Shown here piece after piece: positions 2,225 through 8,997 of a stretch of DNA of 64,000 bases. The notes below the pieces were generated by a model. It was given only the letters and a program-made list of their open reading frames with translations. It made no database searches and had not been told where the DNA came from. The translations under genes were made by a program, and so were the position numbers. Where the stretch lies: contig NZ_JBBOCA010000001.1 in assembly GCF_038002225.1 (NCBI RefSeq), forward strand, positions 6,200,001 through 6,264,000, written 5' to 3'. Source of the DNA: Paenibacillus sp. FSL R7-0204 (GTDB lineage: Bacteria > Bacillota > Bacilli > Paenibacillales > Paenibacillaceae). Positions within the stretch are counted from its first letter, which is position 1, and every line of letters starts with the position of its first letter.

Positions 2225-2557
2225 TCACGAAGCCCTCGCTTGTTTCATCCCATCTCCGACCAGGACAACGCGATCCTTCACCACCAAGAGAGGCGCATGC
2301 TGGCGCACGACCTGGAGCCACTTCTGCCGCAGCGACGAAAGGAACCAGCCCGACGAATGGAAGAAATGAATGAGCGTTTCGTAACAGCGGGGATTCCGCG
2401 TGAGATCTCGAATCAGCGAAGTAACGCCCGAATGGTCGGCGCGCAGCATGAAGCCGAGGACAATCACGACAAACCACTCGAACGTGACTTTTCTGGAGAA
2501 GCAAGAACGTAAAGGCTGGATAAGGTTGTTCATGTATTTAAGCATAGGTATGGTCAA
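2225..2557 (-). pseudogene. Truncated DDE transposase remnant
   Basis: A 110-residue fragment matches the N-terminus of a family of Paenibacillus/Bacillus DDE transposases (KVTFEWFVVIVLGFMLRADH, then LIRDLTRNPRCYETLIHFF). It runs to the first catalytic Asp region (VVLVGDGMKQA) and then stops. Directly after the stop the sequence loosely resembles the expected continuation in another frame before similarity disappears, so a frameshift and a large deletion both occurred. The bulk of the catalytic domain is missing, and it cannot be active. I assign it to the IS701/IS4-like DDE group only tentatively. It sits 50 bases beyond the end of the TerD-VWA gene. Confidence 0.75.
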
Positions 2558-2607: not shown

Positions 2608-3972
2608 CTATAGAATCCCCTTCGCCTTCGCAGCCTTCAACCACTGCGGGAACTCATTCAACAGCTGATCATACAGCTCCTCGTCGGATACGTCTTCAAT
2701 CCGGTCCAGGTGCATGAAGCTGGCGTTATCCACCAGTCTGCCGCTCATCGTGTCGAGCTGCTTCAGTACCTCGAAGTCAGAGTCGCCGATGCCTACAAAC
2801 TGCCAGAAGATTGGAAGAGAAGAGGCCGCCATGATGACTTTGCGGGTCAGCTTCACTACACCGCCGTCATTGATGAAGATAATGAATACAGGCGTCGTGT
2901 CCGGCTCCTCCTTCGTGTATTTCTGGATGACATCCTGCATGACCGGCGGTTCGTTATTGCGCCCAAACTTATGAATCGCGTCATTATTCGTAATATGGGT
3001 GAAGACATAGCTGCCAAGCTCCTGCTCGGTAACCGGCGGAAGTCTGCTGAATTCCGTATCATAGACCCACACATCCAGGGAGCCGTTATCATCGAACTTG
3101 CTGGCAACCGCGAGGATACGTTCTACCACCTCCTGCACCACGCCTCTGGCATAGAGACTGCGCATGGAACCGGTGATGTCCAGCACAATCCCCACCCTTG
3201 CGGTTACATCTGTAAGCTGTTTTTTGATCAGGGTAAGCTCCACCAGTTGTTTGCGCAGATTAATCGAAGACAACACATTCACCGGAGGCCCCGCCTCGGG
3301 CTGACGGATTACCTCCGGGATCTTATTCACCACCTCAGGTGCCTGCTCCACTAGCTCAGGTGTCTGCTCCACCACTTCAGGTGTTTGCTCCACTACCTCA
3401 GCCGCCGCTGCGGCTTCGTTCCCGGATTCCTGTTCCACCTCAAGCCCATAGCTTCGGCACAGGGCTGCAAGTCCCCCATTATACCCGCTGCCGATTGCAC
3501 TGAACTTCCACTCTCCCTGATGGCGGTACAGCTCCCCGGCTACGACGGCTGTCTCCTCTGACAGATCCGCCCCGTACTCGAAGCGGTGCAATTCTTCCCC
3601 GGTCCTGCGATCTGTCAGCGTAAGCTTCAAGCCGGACAGATCCTTCATCCGGTGGTTGCGCTGCTCGCCCTCATAGATCGTCAAGGTTACCGCAATGCGG
3701 GCATAATGCTGAGGTATTTTCGCTAACGAGATGGACAGGCTCGCCCCGTTCTCCCCATCCGCAGCATGAGCTACAGTCCCATCTCTGGATACCGGATTGC
3801 CATAGAAAATAAAGTCTTCATCACGTTCACACCGGTTCTGATCCGACAACAGAAAGGCAGCCGCATCGACGCCCATTCCGCTATGCTGCGTGTTCCAGCG
3901 GAGCTGGATGGATATCTCGTGAGCTTCTCTTCCTTTGGTGATATCGGCCTTTTGACCTTTTGACAGCTGCAA
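2608..3972 (-). CDS. TerD-domain / VWA-domain fusion protein (TerF/TerY-like)
   Basis: Residues 1-185 (counted from the ATG at 3981) form a TerD domain (LSKGQKADITKG; GELYRHQGEWKFSAIGSGYN). Residues 195-230 are a linker of VVEQTPE-like seven-residue repeats. About 262-440 is a von Willebrand A domain whose metal site reads DITGS (268-272) in place of DxSxS. Ter proteins act in tellurite and general stress responses, probably at the membrane. VWA domains bind partners through a metal ion. The acidic calcium loop usual in TerD is reduced to AHAADGENGA. I prefer the TTG at 3972 because GAGGAG lies 8 bases before it; for the ATG at 3981 it would lie directly against the start. The gene is divergent from an exonuclease-TerD gene. 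Confidence 0.88.
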   Translation of the reverse strand: MQLSKGQKADITKGREAHEISIQLRWNTQHSGMGVDAAAFLLSDQNRCERDEDFIFYGNPVSRDGTVAHAADGENGASLSISLAKIPQHYARIAVTLTIYEGEQRNHRMKDLSGLKLTLTDRRTGEELHRFEYGADLSEETAVVAGELYRHQGEWKFSAIGSGYNGGLAALCRSYGLEVEQESGNEAAAAAEVVEQTPEVVEQTPELVEQAPEVVNKIPEVIRQPEAGPPVNVLSSINLRKQLVELTLIKKQLTDVTARVGIVLDITGSMRSLYARGVVQEVVERILAVASKFDDNGSLDVWVYDTEFSRLPPVTEQELGSYVFTHITNNDAIHKFGRNNEPPVMQDVIQKYTKEEPDTTPVFIIFINDGGVVKLTRKVIMAASSLPIFWQFVGIGDSDFEVLKQLDTMSGRLVDNASFMHLDRIEDVSDEELYDQLLNEFPQWLKAAKAKGIL

Positions 3973-4061
3973 ATCTCTCATCTCCTCTTCATAGCAGTCT
4001 ATTCCAGAAGTTCATAGATAAGGTATACCCCATTGGCGCAGCCTTGTACACTCTGAACGCA

Positions 4062-4090
4062 TTGTATTTCCAGCTTTGCTCCTTTAATAT
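4062..4090 (+). promoter_or_regulatory. Candidate sigma-A promoter of the exonuclease-TerD gene
   Basis: TTGTAT (4062-4067), a 17-base spacer and TAATAT (4085-4090) give a good vegetative promoter, with a leader of about 30 bases before the ATG at 4126. The 153-base divergent gap would also contain the promoter of the TerD-VWA gene, so the two genes probably share control. Confidence 0.5.
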
Positions 4091-4125
4091 GAAAAGTATT
4101 AGATGATAGATAGGGGCCTTACCTG

Positions 4126-5502
4126 ATGGATTTCACTGCGATAGACTTTGAGACTGCCAATTCCGGACGCTCCAGCGCCTGTGCCCTGGGGCTTGTTCAG
4201 GTCCGGGACGGTATCGTCACTGCGGAACATAACTGGCTGATTGATCCGCGGCAGCGGTTCGACGGGATGAATATTGCCATTCATGGCATTACGCCCTCGA
4301 TGGTCAGAGGCCAGCCTACCTTCGCTGAGTTGTGGCCCACGGTAGAACCGCTGCTGCAAGGCGAGATTGTGATTGCGCATAATGCCGCCTTCGATATGAG
4401 TGTGCTGCGGTACTGCCTGGACGACTACTCTCTCTGCTATCCCGGCTTTCAATATTTATGTACCTACCTGCTCGGCAAAAAAATGCTCCAGGACCTCCCC
4501 TCCCATAAGCTGAATGTCATCTCGGCGCATTTCGGCATCCGCCTGAAGCACCATGATGCCCTGGAGGATGCCAGAGCTTCTGCACTGATTCTCCTGAAAT
4601 TGATGGAGCAGTGGCAGCAGTTCGATCCGCTGCTGTTAGCCGGCAGCCAGGGCTACAAGGCCGGGACGATGTATGACGGCGGGTATACGCCGTTCAAGGC
4701 AACGCCCAAGAAGGCCGCGAAGAAGCCGGCCGCCGGGAAGAAGGCAGCGGCCAGTCCTGCGGTCGATGTTAGCCCAGGATTGCCGATGGGCGGAACGGTG
4801 GCCGGGCAGTCGCCAGGTGAAGCGCTAGCGGTATCGCCCGGCCAGCTTCCGGCGGAAGCATCGCCAGCCACTGGAGCTGCGGCTGCCCCCATATTGGCGC
4901 GGGGGCAGCGAGTCGATATCGGAGACAAGCTTAGCGCCTCCAGACTCCTTGCCGCTGTGGAGTGGGACGCTCCGGCTTCGCACCTGGAAGTCAGTCAGCC
5001 GGAGACCGCTGCCTTCCTGCTTCGGGAGAGCGGACGATGTGAGCAAGAGCGGGAGCTTATCTTCTCTGGGAATATGGAAGACCCTAGCGGCTCCGTCTTC
5101 TGCTCTAAGCCCGCTGCGCACATGGGACATCTGTATCTTCAGCTGACCAGCCTGCCTGCAGCCATCACGCGGATTGCGCTGGCCTTCACGGTTGCGGAGT
5201 TCAGCGGTGACCGGAATCCGGGCCCGATCTGGAACGCTTCCGTATCACTGATTGATTCCCGGACAGGAGTCAGACTGGCCGTATTCCCCTTAAGCCGGAG
5301 TGTTATGCCAGGCATGTCCGTTATTATCGGCGAGTTCTACCGTTATAAGGATAAATGGAGATTCGCTGCTATCGGAGAGTTGCTGCCTGGCGGCCTTCCG
5401 GCCCTGTGCAGCCACTACGGTCTTACGGTGGGGGCCGATGGCCCTGAGGAGAAGGCTGCGGCTGAGTCCGCCGCCGCAGCGGAGGCTGAAGCTCCTGAAT
5501 AA
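4126..5502 (+). CDS. DEDDh 3'-5' exonuclease fused to a TerD domain
   Basis: Residues 1-165 are a DnaQ/RNase T-like exonuclease with all five catalytic residues visible: D7 and E9 (AIDFET), D90 (AHNAAFD), and H143 with D148 (HDALEDA). Residues 180-250 are a Lys/Ala/Pro-rich linker (TPKKAAKKPAAGKK) that could bind nucleic acid. About 255-445 is a TerD domain (ILARGQRVDIGD; GEFYRYKDKWRFAAIGE) without an acidic calcium loop. The tail is Ala/Glu-rich. The exonuclease should degrade single-stranded or frayed DNA or RNA from the 3' end. Its fusion to TerD suggests that stress sensing directs nucleic-acid processing. A weak AGGGG site lies upstream of the ATG. The strong hairpin directly after the stop ends the transcript. 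Confidence 0.88.
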   Translation: MDFTAIDFETANSGRSSACALGLVQVRDGIVTAEHNWLIDPRQRFDGMNIAIHGITPSMVRGQPTFAELWPTVEPLLQGEIVIAHNAAFDMSVLRYCLDDYSLCYPGFQYLCTYLLGKKMLQDLPSHKLNVISAHFGIRLKHHDALEDARASALILLKLMEQWQQFDPLLLAGSQGYKAGTMYDGGYTPFKATPKKAAKKPAAGKKAAASPAVDVSPGLPMGGTVAGQSPGEALAVSPGQLPAEASPATGAAAAPILARGQRVDIGDKLSASRLLAAVEWDAPASHLEVSQPETAAFLLRESGRCEQERELIFSGNMEDPSGSVFCSKPAAHMGHLYLQLTSLPAAITRIALAFTVAEFSGDRNPGPIWNASVSLIDSRTGVRLAVFPLSRSVMPGMSVIIGEFYRYKDKWRFAAIGELLPGGLPALCSHYGLTVGADGPEEKAAAESAAAAEAEAPE

Positions 5503-5574: not shown

Positions 5575-6531
5575 TTATAACTTCAGCCGGTAAACGGCCT
5601 TATTCTCCAGCCCTCTAATGAACGGCGTCCATTCCTCCGTCTCCGGAGTAGTATCAAGGGCGTCCTCCACCATTTGCAGCTTGGCATCCATCGCATCGAT
5701 ATGATGCAGGGCAACTGCTTCAGCCGTCTGCGGCTGGACCGGGCTTCCCCACTCGCCCAGATTATGATGAGATAATACCAGATGCTGAAGCGCCAGGATT
5801 TTCTCGGATTCCAGATCAATGCCGGTGCGGATTGCCGCTTCTGTAATCCAGCTGGAGGCCATGGAAATATGCCCGATCAGCTTGCCCTTCACACTATAGT
5901 CCGACACAATACCGTACTGCGAGATCATCTCTTCCGGCTTGGCGATATCATGAAGGATGATGCCTGCTCTCATCAGATCAGGATTCAGGAACGGACGCTG
6001 CTTGCACAGGAAGTCCCCAATCTCCAGCATGCGGACCATGTGATAAGCAAGCCCTGCGAAATACGCATGATGGTGGGTCTTGGCAGCCGGATAATGCATC
6101 AGCTTCTCCTCCACCTTACCGACACAGAAGTTCACAATCGCTGCAATCTCCGGATCAGCAATACTTGCCATTTCGTTCTTGATCGTATGGACCAGATCCA
6201 CTGGACGCACCGGAGCCGAGCGGATGAAGTCGGTCAGCGATACCCCATCGGATTCATTAACCAGTCTGAGCTTAGTGATTTTGACCTGGAGCTTCTCGCG
6301 GTAGGTATGGGCCAATCCCCGGACCTTCACCAGTGCCATCGGGAAAAAAGTCTCCTTATCCGTCACGCTGACGTCCCAGCATTTCGCCGAAATCTGGCCG
6401 CTGGCATCACCTAGTACAATATCGAAGTAATCCTTGGGAGGAGTCCCGTTCGTCTGTTTCAGCACCAGTTCTCTAAGCAGATAGAAGCCGGTGAATTCAT
6501 CCTGCGGGGCTAGCTGTTTGATTAATGTCAT
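5575..6531 (-). CDS. yhaM: 3'-5' exoribonuclease YhaM-like, OB fold plus HD domain
   Basis: The 318-residue protein has the two-domain layout and length of Bacillus YhaM (314 residues). An N-terminal OB-fold nucleic-acid domain covers about 10-110 (DYFDIVLGDASGQISAKCWD). An HD phosphohydrolase domain follows with H..HD..H..D residues at THHHAYFAGLAYH, GIILHDIAKP, GHISMA and HHIDAMDAK. YhaM trims RNA, and also single-stranded DNA, from 3' ends using a metal pair held by the HD residues. The start is fixed by TAGGAGG 7 bases upstream. It stands alone and converges on the exonuclease-TerD gene, so two 3' exonucleases lie side by side, perhaps only by chance. Confidence 0.9.
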   Translation of the reverse strand: MTLIKQLAPQDEFTGFYLLRELVLKQTNGTPPKDYFDIVLGDASGQISAKCWDVSVTDKETFFPMALVKVRGLAHTYREKLQVKITKLRLVNESDGVSLTDFIRSAPVRPVDLVHTIKNEMASIADPEIAAIVNFCVGKVEEKLMHYPAAKTHHHAYFAGLAYHMVRMLEIGDFLCKQRPFLNPDLMRAGIILHDIAKPEEMISQYGIVSDYSVKGKLIGHISMASSWITEAAIRTGIDLESEKILALQHLVLSHHNLGEWGSPVQPQTAEAVALHHIDAMDAKLQMVEDALDTTPETEEWTPFIRGLENKAVYRLKL

Positions 6532-6723: not shown

Positions 6724-8997
6724 TTATTTTCCGGCAGATTCGAGCGCTGCTTTGATCGCTTCTACCGCTTTGGCGGAGATGGCTTTCTGGGCATCATTCG
6801 CTCCGAAGGCTGCTGCACGGTACCCGTACTTATGCAGTCCCATGCCGTTCGAGGTATTCTCGATCTCGTATTTCACAAGCAACTCATCATCCGTCAGATT
6901 ATATCTTACTTTACCCTTATCATCCAGGTAGTACACAGCCATAGTTACAGGCACATTATACTTAGTAGTAACCATGACATTTACAGTCTTATCCACACTT
7001 GCACCGATGAAAATGCCATCGAAATACGCAGCCTTATCCGTTTCCGTAACTTCCGCTTTACCATAAGCTCTGTCAACGGCTGCCTTCAGCGCATTGCTGC
7101 TGCTGGTAGCGCCGGATACCGCATCCACATCCTGAGCGCCTTCTCTTGTGCCTGCGGCCAGGAAGCTGGCGGTCAGCACCGGAATGGCTTTTTGCACCTC
7201 AGCATAAGCGGCTTTACCCAGATCCACCATGTTCATGCCTACACGGGAAAGGGCCACATTTACGATCTTGCCGTTACGCAGTGTAACATCTGCTTTGTTC
7301 GTGCCCTTGTCATAAGCATCACCGTAAGCGGTGAAGGTGCCGTCTTTATAAGTGCCTTGTACTTTGGACGCATTGGTCAAAGCATCCGTCAGTGCTGCCT
7401 TCGCTGCAGCTGACAGGGCTTCCTGTCCTGCGATATCTGGAGCCTGCACGCCGCTTGCGAGCAGTCCGGCGGTCAGCTTTTCCACCAGTGATTTCTGTTC
7501 TTCGGTACGCTTATCATCTGCAATCAGCTTGCCGTCTGCGCCGAACAGGCTCAGCTTGATGCCCGTTACCTGATCCGCGTCGATATCAACCAGCAGCATA
7601 ACCTTAGACTGATTATCCACACCGGCAAATTTACCGTCGAAGGTTTGACCTTCACCCGGAGTCTTCAAGGCTTTCTCAAAAGCGCGCTCTACGGCCTGGT
7701 TCCAGCCATGGCTGCTCTCCGTAGCGCCGGAAATTCCATCTACCTTCTCATTATAGTTAGCGATATAAGATCCGTTAGCCAGCAGTTTGGCGGTCATCGG
7801 AGCATTCGCCTTCACAACCTCTGCATAAGCGGTTTCCCCTCTGTCGATCAGGTTGCTGCCAAGTCTGAACAGCTTCACATCCACCAGCTTACCGTTACGG
7901 ATCACAACATCCGCTCTCTCCACGCCTACACTTCTTGCTGTACCGTAGGAAGAGTAGAATCCGTCAACATAAGCAGCCTTGTTGTTGATGCTGGCATTCT
8001 GTTCAGCATCCCAGAAGGCATTCACTGCGGCTTTGGTCTCCGCCTCGAAGCCGGCTACCGGCTGCGCATTAGCACCTTTGGCGAGCAGTGCAGGAGTGAT
8101 TGCTGCAATCGCTGCAGTCTGTTCAGCCGTATACGTCTTCTCATCCACGAAATCTCCGGTAGCGCTCAGCGGATACAATTTAACCGCAGTCAGCATGTTT
8201 GCTTCATAGGTAGCAAACACTGCATATTGGGCCTCAGGGTCGACACCCATGTGAACTCCGCCAAAATAAGTGGTATCAGCCGCATGGTGCGTAAGCGATC
8301 GCTCAAAAGCTCTGTCTACGGACAGCTTCCAGCCGTTGCTGGTACGGGTTGCGCCGGATACAGCGTCAACGTTAGCTGCGCCGTCTCTGGTTTTGCCCAT
8401 CAGTCTGTCTTTCATCAGACCGTAGGCTGCCCACACGCCGCTGTAATTCTCACGGGCATTGCGGTCGATGATCTTCGGGCTGGTTCTGAGCAGCTCGATA
8501 TCGGCGATCTTGCCGTCTTTAATCGTTACCTTCGCACCCTCTGTACCTTTGGAATACGCATCGCCATAGGCAACATATACTCCATCCTGATATACATCCT
8601 TGTGCACAGTAACTGGTGCTGCTGTTGCTACAGGCTTCGCAGTTGCCGCTGGCTTTGCAGTTGCTTTGGCGGTTGCTGCTGGTGCAGTTGTTGCTTTTGG
8701 AGTGGCTGCCGGTTTGGCTGTCGCCTTCGGGGTTGCTGCCGGTTTGGCTGTTGCCTTCGGGGTTGGTGCCGGTTTGGCTGTTGCCTTCGGAGTTGGCGCC
8801 GGTTTGGCTGTCGCCTTCGGAGTTGGTTTCGGTTTGGCTGTTGCCTTCGGAGCTGGTTTAGCAGTCGCTGCCGGCGCTTCTTCCGAGGCTGCTGAAACCG
8901 CATCCACCTTCAGGTTCAAGGCCGGTGCGTTAATCGTGTAGGCTAATGGCGCGAGCAGTAAGGCTGCGCTTACAGTCAAAGAAATTAGTTTTTTCAA
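6724..8997 (-). CDS. Secreted protein with three FMN-binding (flavinylation) repeats
   Basis: A signal peptide (MKKLISLTVSAALLLAPLAY) is followed by an Ala-Thr-Lys-Pro low-complexity stalk (about 40-130, ATAKPAPTPK repeats). Then come three roughly 205-residue units. Each has an FMN_bind domain with the SGAT flavin-attachment motif: VDAVSGATRTSNGW (near 215), VDGISGATESSHGW (near 425) and VDAVSGATSSSNAL (near 630). Each FMN half is followed by a similar half-domain without SGAT. In NqrC/RnfG relatives, ApbE links FMN to the Thr of this motif, so this protein could carry three covalent flavins outside the membrane and pass electrons. No apbE or membrane reductase is visible here. Start: TTG at 8997 with AAAGGAG 9 bases upstream. 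Confidence 0.87.
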   Translation of the reverse strand: MKKLISLTVSAALLLAPLAYTINAPALNLKVDAVSAASEEAPAATAKPAPKATAKPKPTPKATAKPAPTPKATAKPAPTPKATAKPAATPKATAKPAATPKATTAPAATAKATAKPAATAKPVATAAPVTVHKDVYQDGVYVAYGDAYSKGTEGAKVTIKDGKIADIELLRTSPKIIDRNARENYSGVWAAYGLMKDRLMGKTRDGAANVDAVSGATRTSNGWKLSVDRAFERSLTHHAADTTYFGGVHMGVDPEAQYAVFATYEANMLTAVKLYPLSATGDFVDEKTYTAEQTAAIAAITPALLAKGANAQPVAGFEAETKAAVNAFWDAEQNASINNKAAYVDGFYSSYGTARSVGVERADVVIRNGKLVDVKLFRLGSNLIDRGETAYAEVVKANAPMTAKLLANGSYIANYNEKVDGISGATESSHGWNQAVERAFEKALKTPGEGQTFDGKFAGVDNQSKVMLLVDIDADQVTGIKLSLFGADGKLIADDKRTEEQKSLVEKLTAGLLASGVQAPDIAGQEALSAAAKAALTDALTNASKVQGTYKDGTFTAYGDAYDKGTNKADVTLRNGKIVNVALSRVGMNMVDLGKAAYAEVQKAIPVLTASFLAAGTREGAQDVDAVSGATSSSNALKAAVDRAYGKAEVTETDKAAYFDGIFIGASVDKTVNVMVTTKYNVPVTMAVYYLDDKGKVRYNLTDDELLVKYEIENTSNGMGLHKYGYRAAAFGANDAQKAISAKAVEAIKAALESAGK

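Follow-up and report, generated by a model that had tools for sequence, protein, structure and literature searches.

Gene anatomy of the locus

Within a 64,000-nucleotide stretch of the Paenibacillus sp. FSL R7-0204 genome (contig NZ_JBBOCA010000001.1, positions 6,200,001 to 6,264,000; hereafter the window), we analysed a divergent gene pair in which a predicted DEDDh 3′–5′ exonuclease fused to a TerD domain lies back to back with a TerF-type protein composed of a TerD and a vWA domain. The locus sits on the main contig, at 6.20 Mb, in a genome of 7.7 Mb and comprises the following features, in window coordinates:

2608..3981, minus strand: gene for the TerF-type protein, 457 amino acids (TerD plus vWA); Pfam TerD 174.7 bits, vWA-TerF-like 265.2 bits
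3448..3969, minus strand: N-terminal TerD domain of the TerF-type protein, residues 5–178; Pfam match
2611..3204, minus strand: C-terminal vWA domain of the TerF-type protein, residues 260–457; Pfam match
3982..4125, no strand: divergent intergenic region of 144 bases, set by the open reading frame (ORF) starts
4060..4093, plus strand: conserved promoter-like block upstream of the exonuclease; conservation across 32 aligned intergenic regions, below the promoter-scan threshold
4126..5502, plus strand: gene for the DEDDh exonuclease–TerD fusion, 458 amino acids; ORF and Pfam
4138..4590, plus strand: exonuclease domain of the fusion, residues 5–155, with D7, E9, D90, H143 and D148; RNase_T 67.3 bits
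4696..4890, plus strand: variable Lys/Ala/Pro-rich linker of the fusion, residues 191–255; from the alignment, with a median ratio of nonsynonymous to synonymous substitution rates (dN/dS) of 0.327
4894..5418, plus strand: C-terminal TerD domain of the fusion, residues 257–431; TerD 90.1 bits, cut-off 25.3

ORFs, strands and end points agree with a first-pass annotation of this DNA. The 153-base gap that it gave holds only if a TTG at 3972 is taken as the TerF start; ATG starts give 144 bases. Its description of two genes of similar layout is accurate in that both carry a TerD domain, but this domain sits at the N-terminus of the TerF-type protein and at the C-terminus of the fusion, and the two domains are ~33% identical.

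The TerF-type protein matches TerD (PF02342, E 1.8e-51) in its N-terminal part and vWA-TerF-like (PF10138, E 6.3e-79) in its C-terminal part, both well above cut-off and in the same order as in TerF of ter operons; a DITGS stretch, a candidate part of a metal-binding MIDAS motif, is visible in its sequence. In enterobacterial plasmids TerF lies at the end of the ter operon, whereas the gene described here adjoins an exonuclease gene and is separated by 1.3 Mb from the genome's ter cluster.

A conserved exonuclease with TerD in place of BRCT

The fusion protein matches RNase_T (PF00929, E 3.2e-18) and TerD (E 1.6e-25), the latter above the curated cut-off of PF02342 and covering model positions 5–187 of 187. 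All five residues of the DEDDh motif are present and are invariant in 76 of 76 aligned relatives longer than 200 amino acids, 74 from the genus and two from outside it, with the broken genes of genomes G025 and G035 excluded. Judged by motif, the protein is a DEDDh 3′–5′ exonuclease with intact active-site residues, as the first-pass annotation had proposed. Among named models it comes nearest to those of DNA polymerase III epsilon-type and DinG exonucleases; of solved chains, the PolC exonuclease 2p1j is closest. The NCBIfam model PRK06195 ('DNA polymerase III subunit epsilon') aligns with residues 1–192 at 203.9 bits, under the equivalog cut-off of 373, and the C-terminal part of the fusion is TerD rather than BRCT. 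The exonuclease domain itself is the same as in these exonuclease–BRCT proteins: relatives in the order carry it joined to BRCT, relatives in many phyla have a BRCT tail or no tail, and in the fusion TerD takes BRCT's C-terminal place.

Other long exonuclease ORFs were considered as hidden TerD fusions and rejected, with BRCT found in 19 of 19 and TerD in none; 17 of these came from the order (one being a second gene in genome G071) and the remaining two from other parts of the class. This second gene (G071:C1:1749335-1749811, locus L211) is a diverged family exonuclease, 39% identical, in a 455-residue frame with a BRCT match. Among 80 of 578 confirmed loci in a collection of named genomes, BRCT is matched by at least 13 exonuclease ORFs and TerD by none; records near the window's genome may be missing from this set, and the 13 are a lower bound because the BRCT query was one single sequence.

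These affinities bear on the substrate. DEDDh enzymes can use DNA or RNA, and the HD-domain gene next door (5575–6531, minus strand) encodes what we take to be a YhaM-like 3′–5′ exonuclease, so that the pair might process RNA under stress. We consider this improbable, because the nearest models and the closest chain are of DNA polymerase type or DinG and because the relatives frequently carry BRCT, a domain familiar in DNA repair proteins; DNA would then be the likelier substrate.

The exonuclease domain also accounts for the matches to candidate defence models. Two PDC-S48 models of PADLOC match the fusion at 96.0 and 81.8 bits, over residues 2–169 only, and the TerF-type protein has no match to any PADLOC model at E up to 1. 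An anti-phage module in which TerF senses infection and releases the nuclease would be in keeping with these matches and with the proposal, found in PMC7824862, that Ter systems act against phages. It is nevertheless very improbable: the match is confined to the generic exonuclease domain, the setting is chromosomal and syntenic in relatives, and, according to part of PMC12054061, terF insertions in a classical operon left phage inhibition unaffected. The phage-defence role that the annotation had thought fitting finds no support here.

Occurrence of the pair in relatives

We surveyed 100 genomes of the genus, the window's own included, with an exonuclease threshold of E ≤ 1e-40. The exonuclease occurs in 76 of them and the vWA-TerF domain in 44. 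The two genes lie no more than 5 kb apart in 35 of the 76 exonuclease-bearing genomes, on opposite strands in all 35, which answers in the affirmative the test, set beforehand, of whether they are neighbours in related species. Start-to-start gaps span 79–262 bases in the 32 pairs with an intact terF; the gene is broken in the other three (L034, L035 and L050, from G012, G032 and G035). In G035 the fusion is broken too, and these three loci look as if they are decaying. Beyond the 5-kb limit, terF lies 9.1 kb from the exonuclease in G070, and G105 has a locus-type terF without any exonuclease. P. monticola, P. ihuae and P. albidus carry a TerD-bearing ORF of 426–438 residues divergent from the exonuclease.

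Many loci share the order FMN-binding gene, HD-domain gene, exonuclease, terF (where present) and GNAT gene, and the HD-domain gene adjoins the exonuclease in many of them. The neighbours of the pair in the window, ferrochelatase, FMN-binding, HD-domain and GNAT genes, follow an order that is syntenic in relatives. Where no terF adjoins the exonuclease (41 loci), the GNAT gene is found on the terF side in 10, at 124–515 bases in seven and at 1.6–2.2 kb in three. By eye, some nine of the 41 retain a relic of the stretch beside the terF start, and terF was therefore probably lost from them. Parsimony on the exonuclease tree requires 13 changes of terF adjacency. Outside the genus, no exonuclease–terF neighbours were seen among the matches listed for 392 genomes of the order, with positions compared by eye, and the named loci with the closest exonucleases (among 80 loci) belong to Paenibacillus, plus one filed as Bacillus sp.

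Fusion to TerD is a minority form of the exonuclease in the genus. The 76 comprise 16 complete exonuclease–TerD fusions, 58 stand-alone proteins of 208–246 residues, the broken fusion of G035 and the broken exonuclease of G025; a Lys-rich tail is present on those stand-alone proteins that were inspected. Complete fusions face a terF in 15 of 16 cases, the exception being G017. Beyond the genus, fusions occur in G401 and G397, from other genera of the same family, and on the P. cellulosilyticus plasmid NZ_CP054609.1, where the gene is annotated 'TerD family protein'. A scan of 398 genomes of the class scored at most four candidates per genome, and in it the known fusions of G000 and G114 came out as separate pieces. 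A mobile origin of the fusion was rejected: none of 76 matching phage records and one of 2,793 matching plasmid records spans 80% of it. Two of the outlying fusions have features of their own. The one in G397 (L187:5367-6887) has an additional C-terminal helix-turn-helix (HTH_31, 24.0 bits; cut-off 27), and the plasmid fusion (L185:8001-9227) lies three genes from an ATP-dependent DNA ligase, near a site-specific integrase.

Ancestry and selection

In a tree of 59 TerD domains, from which broken terF genes were excluded, all 19 fused TerDs form one clade (support 98/94) that is sister to 34 locus-type TerF TerDs (joint support 100/97); the ter-cluster TerDs and that of a second TerF fall apart from both. 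That the fusion is a recent copy of the neighbouring terF is not supported: the fused TerDs stand as sister group to the locus TerF TerDs as a whole and are not nested within those of their own clade. The depth of the split is uncertain because of several long branches (FUS_G017, FUS_G089, FUS_G401 and the second TerF) and a program warning of attraction.

The exonuclease parts tell a different history. Within the genus alone, a single clade of fused exonuclease parts is not rejected (approximately unbiased (AU) test, p 0.298); once other genera are added it is (AU p 6e-5). Fusions found beyond the genus branch close to the base of the exonuclease tree. Since the fused TerDs form one clade and their exonuclease parts do not, one old fusion followed by repeated TerD loss would fit best and is probably the simplest account of these trees; domain moves between lineages may offer an alternative history.

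Selection was compared across 14 species of the window's clade, leaving out pairs with dS ≤ 0.1 or undefined. Median dN/dS is 0.057 for vWA (90 pairs), 0.076 for the exonuclease (90 of 91 pairs usable), 0.155 for TerF's TerD (89 pairs), 0.239 for the fused TerD (89 usable pairs; range 0.113–0.331) and 0.327 for the linker (83 pairs). The fused TerD is thus under purifying selection, with an open reading frame throughout the 14-species clade, yet evolves fast.

Relation to the ter cluster

The same contig carries a ter cluster at ~7.50 Mb (L012:915-11354), with TerC, TerB, three TerDs and a protein with two TerD stretches, together with StiP/PELOTA, PRTase, ATP-grasp, C-C bond lyase and HAD-type genes, which are Ter-linked biosynthesis genes. 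No vWA-TerF gene is found in that cluster; the genome's two PF10138 matches lie at 3.06 and 6.20 Mb. Conversely, no TerB, TerC or stand-alone TerD gene adjoins the pair, which therefore does not belong to a ter operon.

Further TerDs were counted as PF02342 matches minus one for each adjacent terF and one for each fusion. At least two are present in all 35 pair genomes (lowest count, four), in 23 of the 41 with an exonuclease and no adjacent terF, and in one of the 24 without the exonuclease; a raw Fisher test of pair genomes against exonuclease genomes lacking an adjacent terF gives p = 3e-6. TerB follows suit, with 33 of 35, 20 of 41 and 0 of 24. Independence of the pair from the ter operon was rejected on the strength of the 35 of 35 pair genomes with further TerDs. 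The annotation had envisaged a two-gene arrangement conserved without the rest of the ter operon: the physical separation of 1.3 Mb bears this out, and the genome content does not. Given these further TerDs and TerB, the pair looks like a satellite of the Ter system rather than a system of its own. The self-standing two-gene Ter module of the annotation also sits poorly with the minority status of the fusion and with the fusions outside the genus, which have no terF beside them.

Other TerD genes of this genome lie apart from both loci. The second, diverged TerF-type gene (443 residues; L011:6658-7989, at 3.06 Mb), whose TerD forms a very long branch, has no exonuclease among the ORFs near it, and a 438-residue TerD protein is encoded at 5.35 Mb of the contig.

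Intergenic region and domain co-evolution

Alignment of 32 intergenic regions revealed a conserved block upstream of the exonuclease, ATTGTATTT followed by CTTTAATATGAA (4060–4093). A strict pattern for this block is found at 24 of 35 loci with an adjacent terF and at 14 of 41 without; the block goes with the exonuclease rather than with the pair. A promoter scan of the 144-base gap returned no consensus promoter; the block resembles one below threshold, and the label 'promoter-like' rests on its conservation. Co-regulation of the exonuclease and terF across the gap is possible.

Pairwise distances of the fused TerD and of TerF's TerD correlate when the exonuclease and vWA are controlled for (r 0.64). 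The unrelated neighbouring GNAT gene, put through the same test against the fused TerD in 12 genomes, gives r 0.72, and with GNAT and the HD gene also controlled for the TerD–TerD correlation falls to r 0.25 (p 0.034).

Structure of the TerD domains

The fused TerD resembles canonical TerD (2kxt, 3ibz), matching solved 2kxt by sequence (E 4.2e-16). An AlphaFold2 model built from a five-row alignment is modest (mean predicted local distance difference test score (pLDDT) 66); in Foldseek its best match is 9a6r_B, described as a GLPD-SCP2 model, and matches 2, 3, 5 and 6 are described as TerD proteins or a TerD homologue. It differs from canonical TerD in being joined to a nuclease, in evolving fast and in having no acidic loop: the three ter-cluster TerDs have an acidic stretch, GDNRTGEGDGDDE, that is either missing or replaced in every other TerD aligned, 19 of them fused and 34 from locus TerFs.

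Canonical TerD binds Ca2+ (title of 2kxt; Pan et al. 2011, as cited in a passage of PMC8123226), from which one might expect the fused TerD to be a Ca2+ sensor that switches the nuclease on and off. The absence of the acidic loop from both TerD types argues against direct sensing and makes such a switch highly unlikely, on the premise that GDNRTGEGDGDDE holds the Ca2+ site, which we infer; by the same token it would favour a binding role.

Proposed function of the pair

We favour, at a probability of roughly 0.45, a reading in which the pair is a satellite locus of the Ter system and TerD docks the nuclease to a Ter assembly. It builds on what is observed: the anatomy, the active-site residues, the recurring divergent pair, the common TerD ancestry, purifying selection and the further TerD genes. 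The genes for a TerF-type TerD–vWA protein and a DEDDh 3′–5′ exonuclease lie head to head on either side of one short intergenic region, and in the window's clade the exonuclease bears a TerD of the same lineage as TerF's own. The fused TerD would most likely be a protein-docking domain that tethers the nuclease to TerF, to TerD proteins of the ter cluster, or to both, and the trimming of nucleic-acid 3′ ends could thereby be placed or restrained during stress. Functional coupling of the nuclease and TerF is plausible.

Several results weigh against this docking reading. The 15 fusions that face a terF are not 15 independent cases, because the 14 closest form one clade, and no terF was found within the 12–17 kb inspected around the fusions of G401, G397 and NZ_CP054609.1. 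The fused TerD evolves about three times faster than the exonuclease and was probably lost several times. A kinship-aware test of the link between pair and ter cluster is not significant (six independent pairs, on average 1.2 for and 0 against). Specific TerD–TerD co-evolution was rejected, its signal being equalled by the GNAT control and taken as a fast-domain effect, so the TerD–TerD contact that the annotation postulated gains nothing from a correlation that had looked positive. Finally, no terF adjoins the exonuclease in 41 of 76 genomes, and 18 of these 41 also lack a ter cluster, which implies that the exonuclease has a role of its own.

That last point leads to the strongest competing explanation, a general-purpose nucleic-acid trimming or repair exonuclease whose TerD tail is a dispensable leftover and whose terF neighbour is there by history only. 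Besides those 41 genomes, the stand-alone form in 58 of 76, the relatives across many phyla that end in BRCT or have no tail, the high dN/dS of the fused TerD and the persistence of the exonuclease in several lineages where terF is missing or broken all speak for it. An open fused TerD under purifying selection across a 14-species clade, the head-to-head order in 35 genomes and the further TerDs in all of these are harder to reconcile with a leftover, and we regard this explanation as doubtful, though a serious contender.

Anantharaman, Iyer and Aravind (2012) reportedly set out a general scheme of TerD/TerF complexes tied to DNA processing. Such complexes are mentioned, by citation, in passages of PMC7824862 and PMC11090510, and the locus shares with Ter-dependent stress response systems, as those passages outline them, this general scheme of TerD/TerF linked to DNA processing. 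No fusion or pair of this kind is described in the parts consulted of the literature on TerD/TerF with exonuclease or vWA domains, a body that excludes the 2012 paper; in some of that literature, terD denotes a replication-termination site. The exonuclease–TerD/TerF arrangement is real, recurring and under-described. PMC8123226, which reports how E. coli carrying a minimal ter operon survives ultraviolet C (UVC), argues against a direct action of ter genes in DNA repair; this weakens the repair role suggested earlier, just as the terF insertions of PMC12054061 weaken the phage-defence idea.

A bolder and unlikely extension of the docking reading is that TerD serves as an exchangeable adaptor through which enzymes acting on nucleic acids are plugged into the Ter complex. 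It would have replaced BRCT in an ancestral Paenibacillaceae exonuclease, with TerF guiding the nuclease and one lineage adding a helix-turn-helix; if so, the fusion would be a direct effector explaining how Ter systems touch DNA. The back-to-back pair is in any case a hint that the tellurite/stress (Ter) system may be connected with nucleic-acid processing. With a TerD–nuclease gene beside a TerF of the same TerD lineage, TerD/TerF function and the Ter link to DNA processing can be tested directly, and the fused and unfused forms that one exonuclease takes in nature provide ready-made comparisons.

Minor features of the surrounding window

On the terF side, an ORF at 2225–2557 (minus strand) weakly matches the start of the DDE_5 transposase model (23.7 bits; cut-off 27); it lies between terF and the GNAT gene and may be a remnant. 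On the other side, 6724–8997 (minus strand) encodes a 757-residue protein that has three FMN-binding stretches; its N-terminal part is long, repetitive and rich in Lys, Ala, Pro and Thr.

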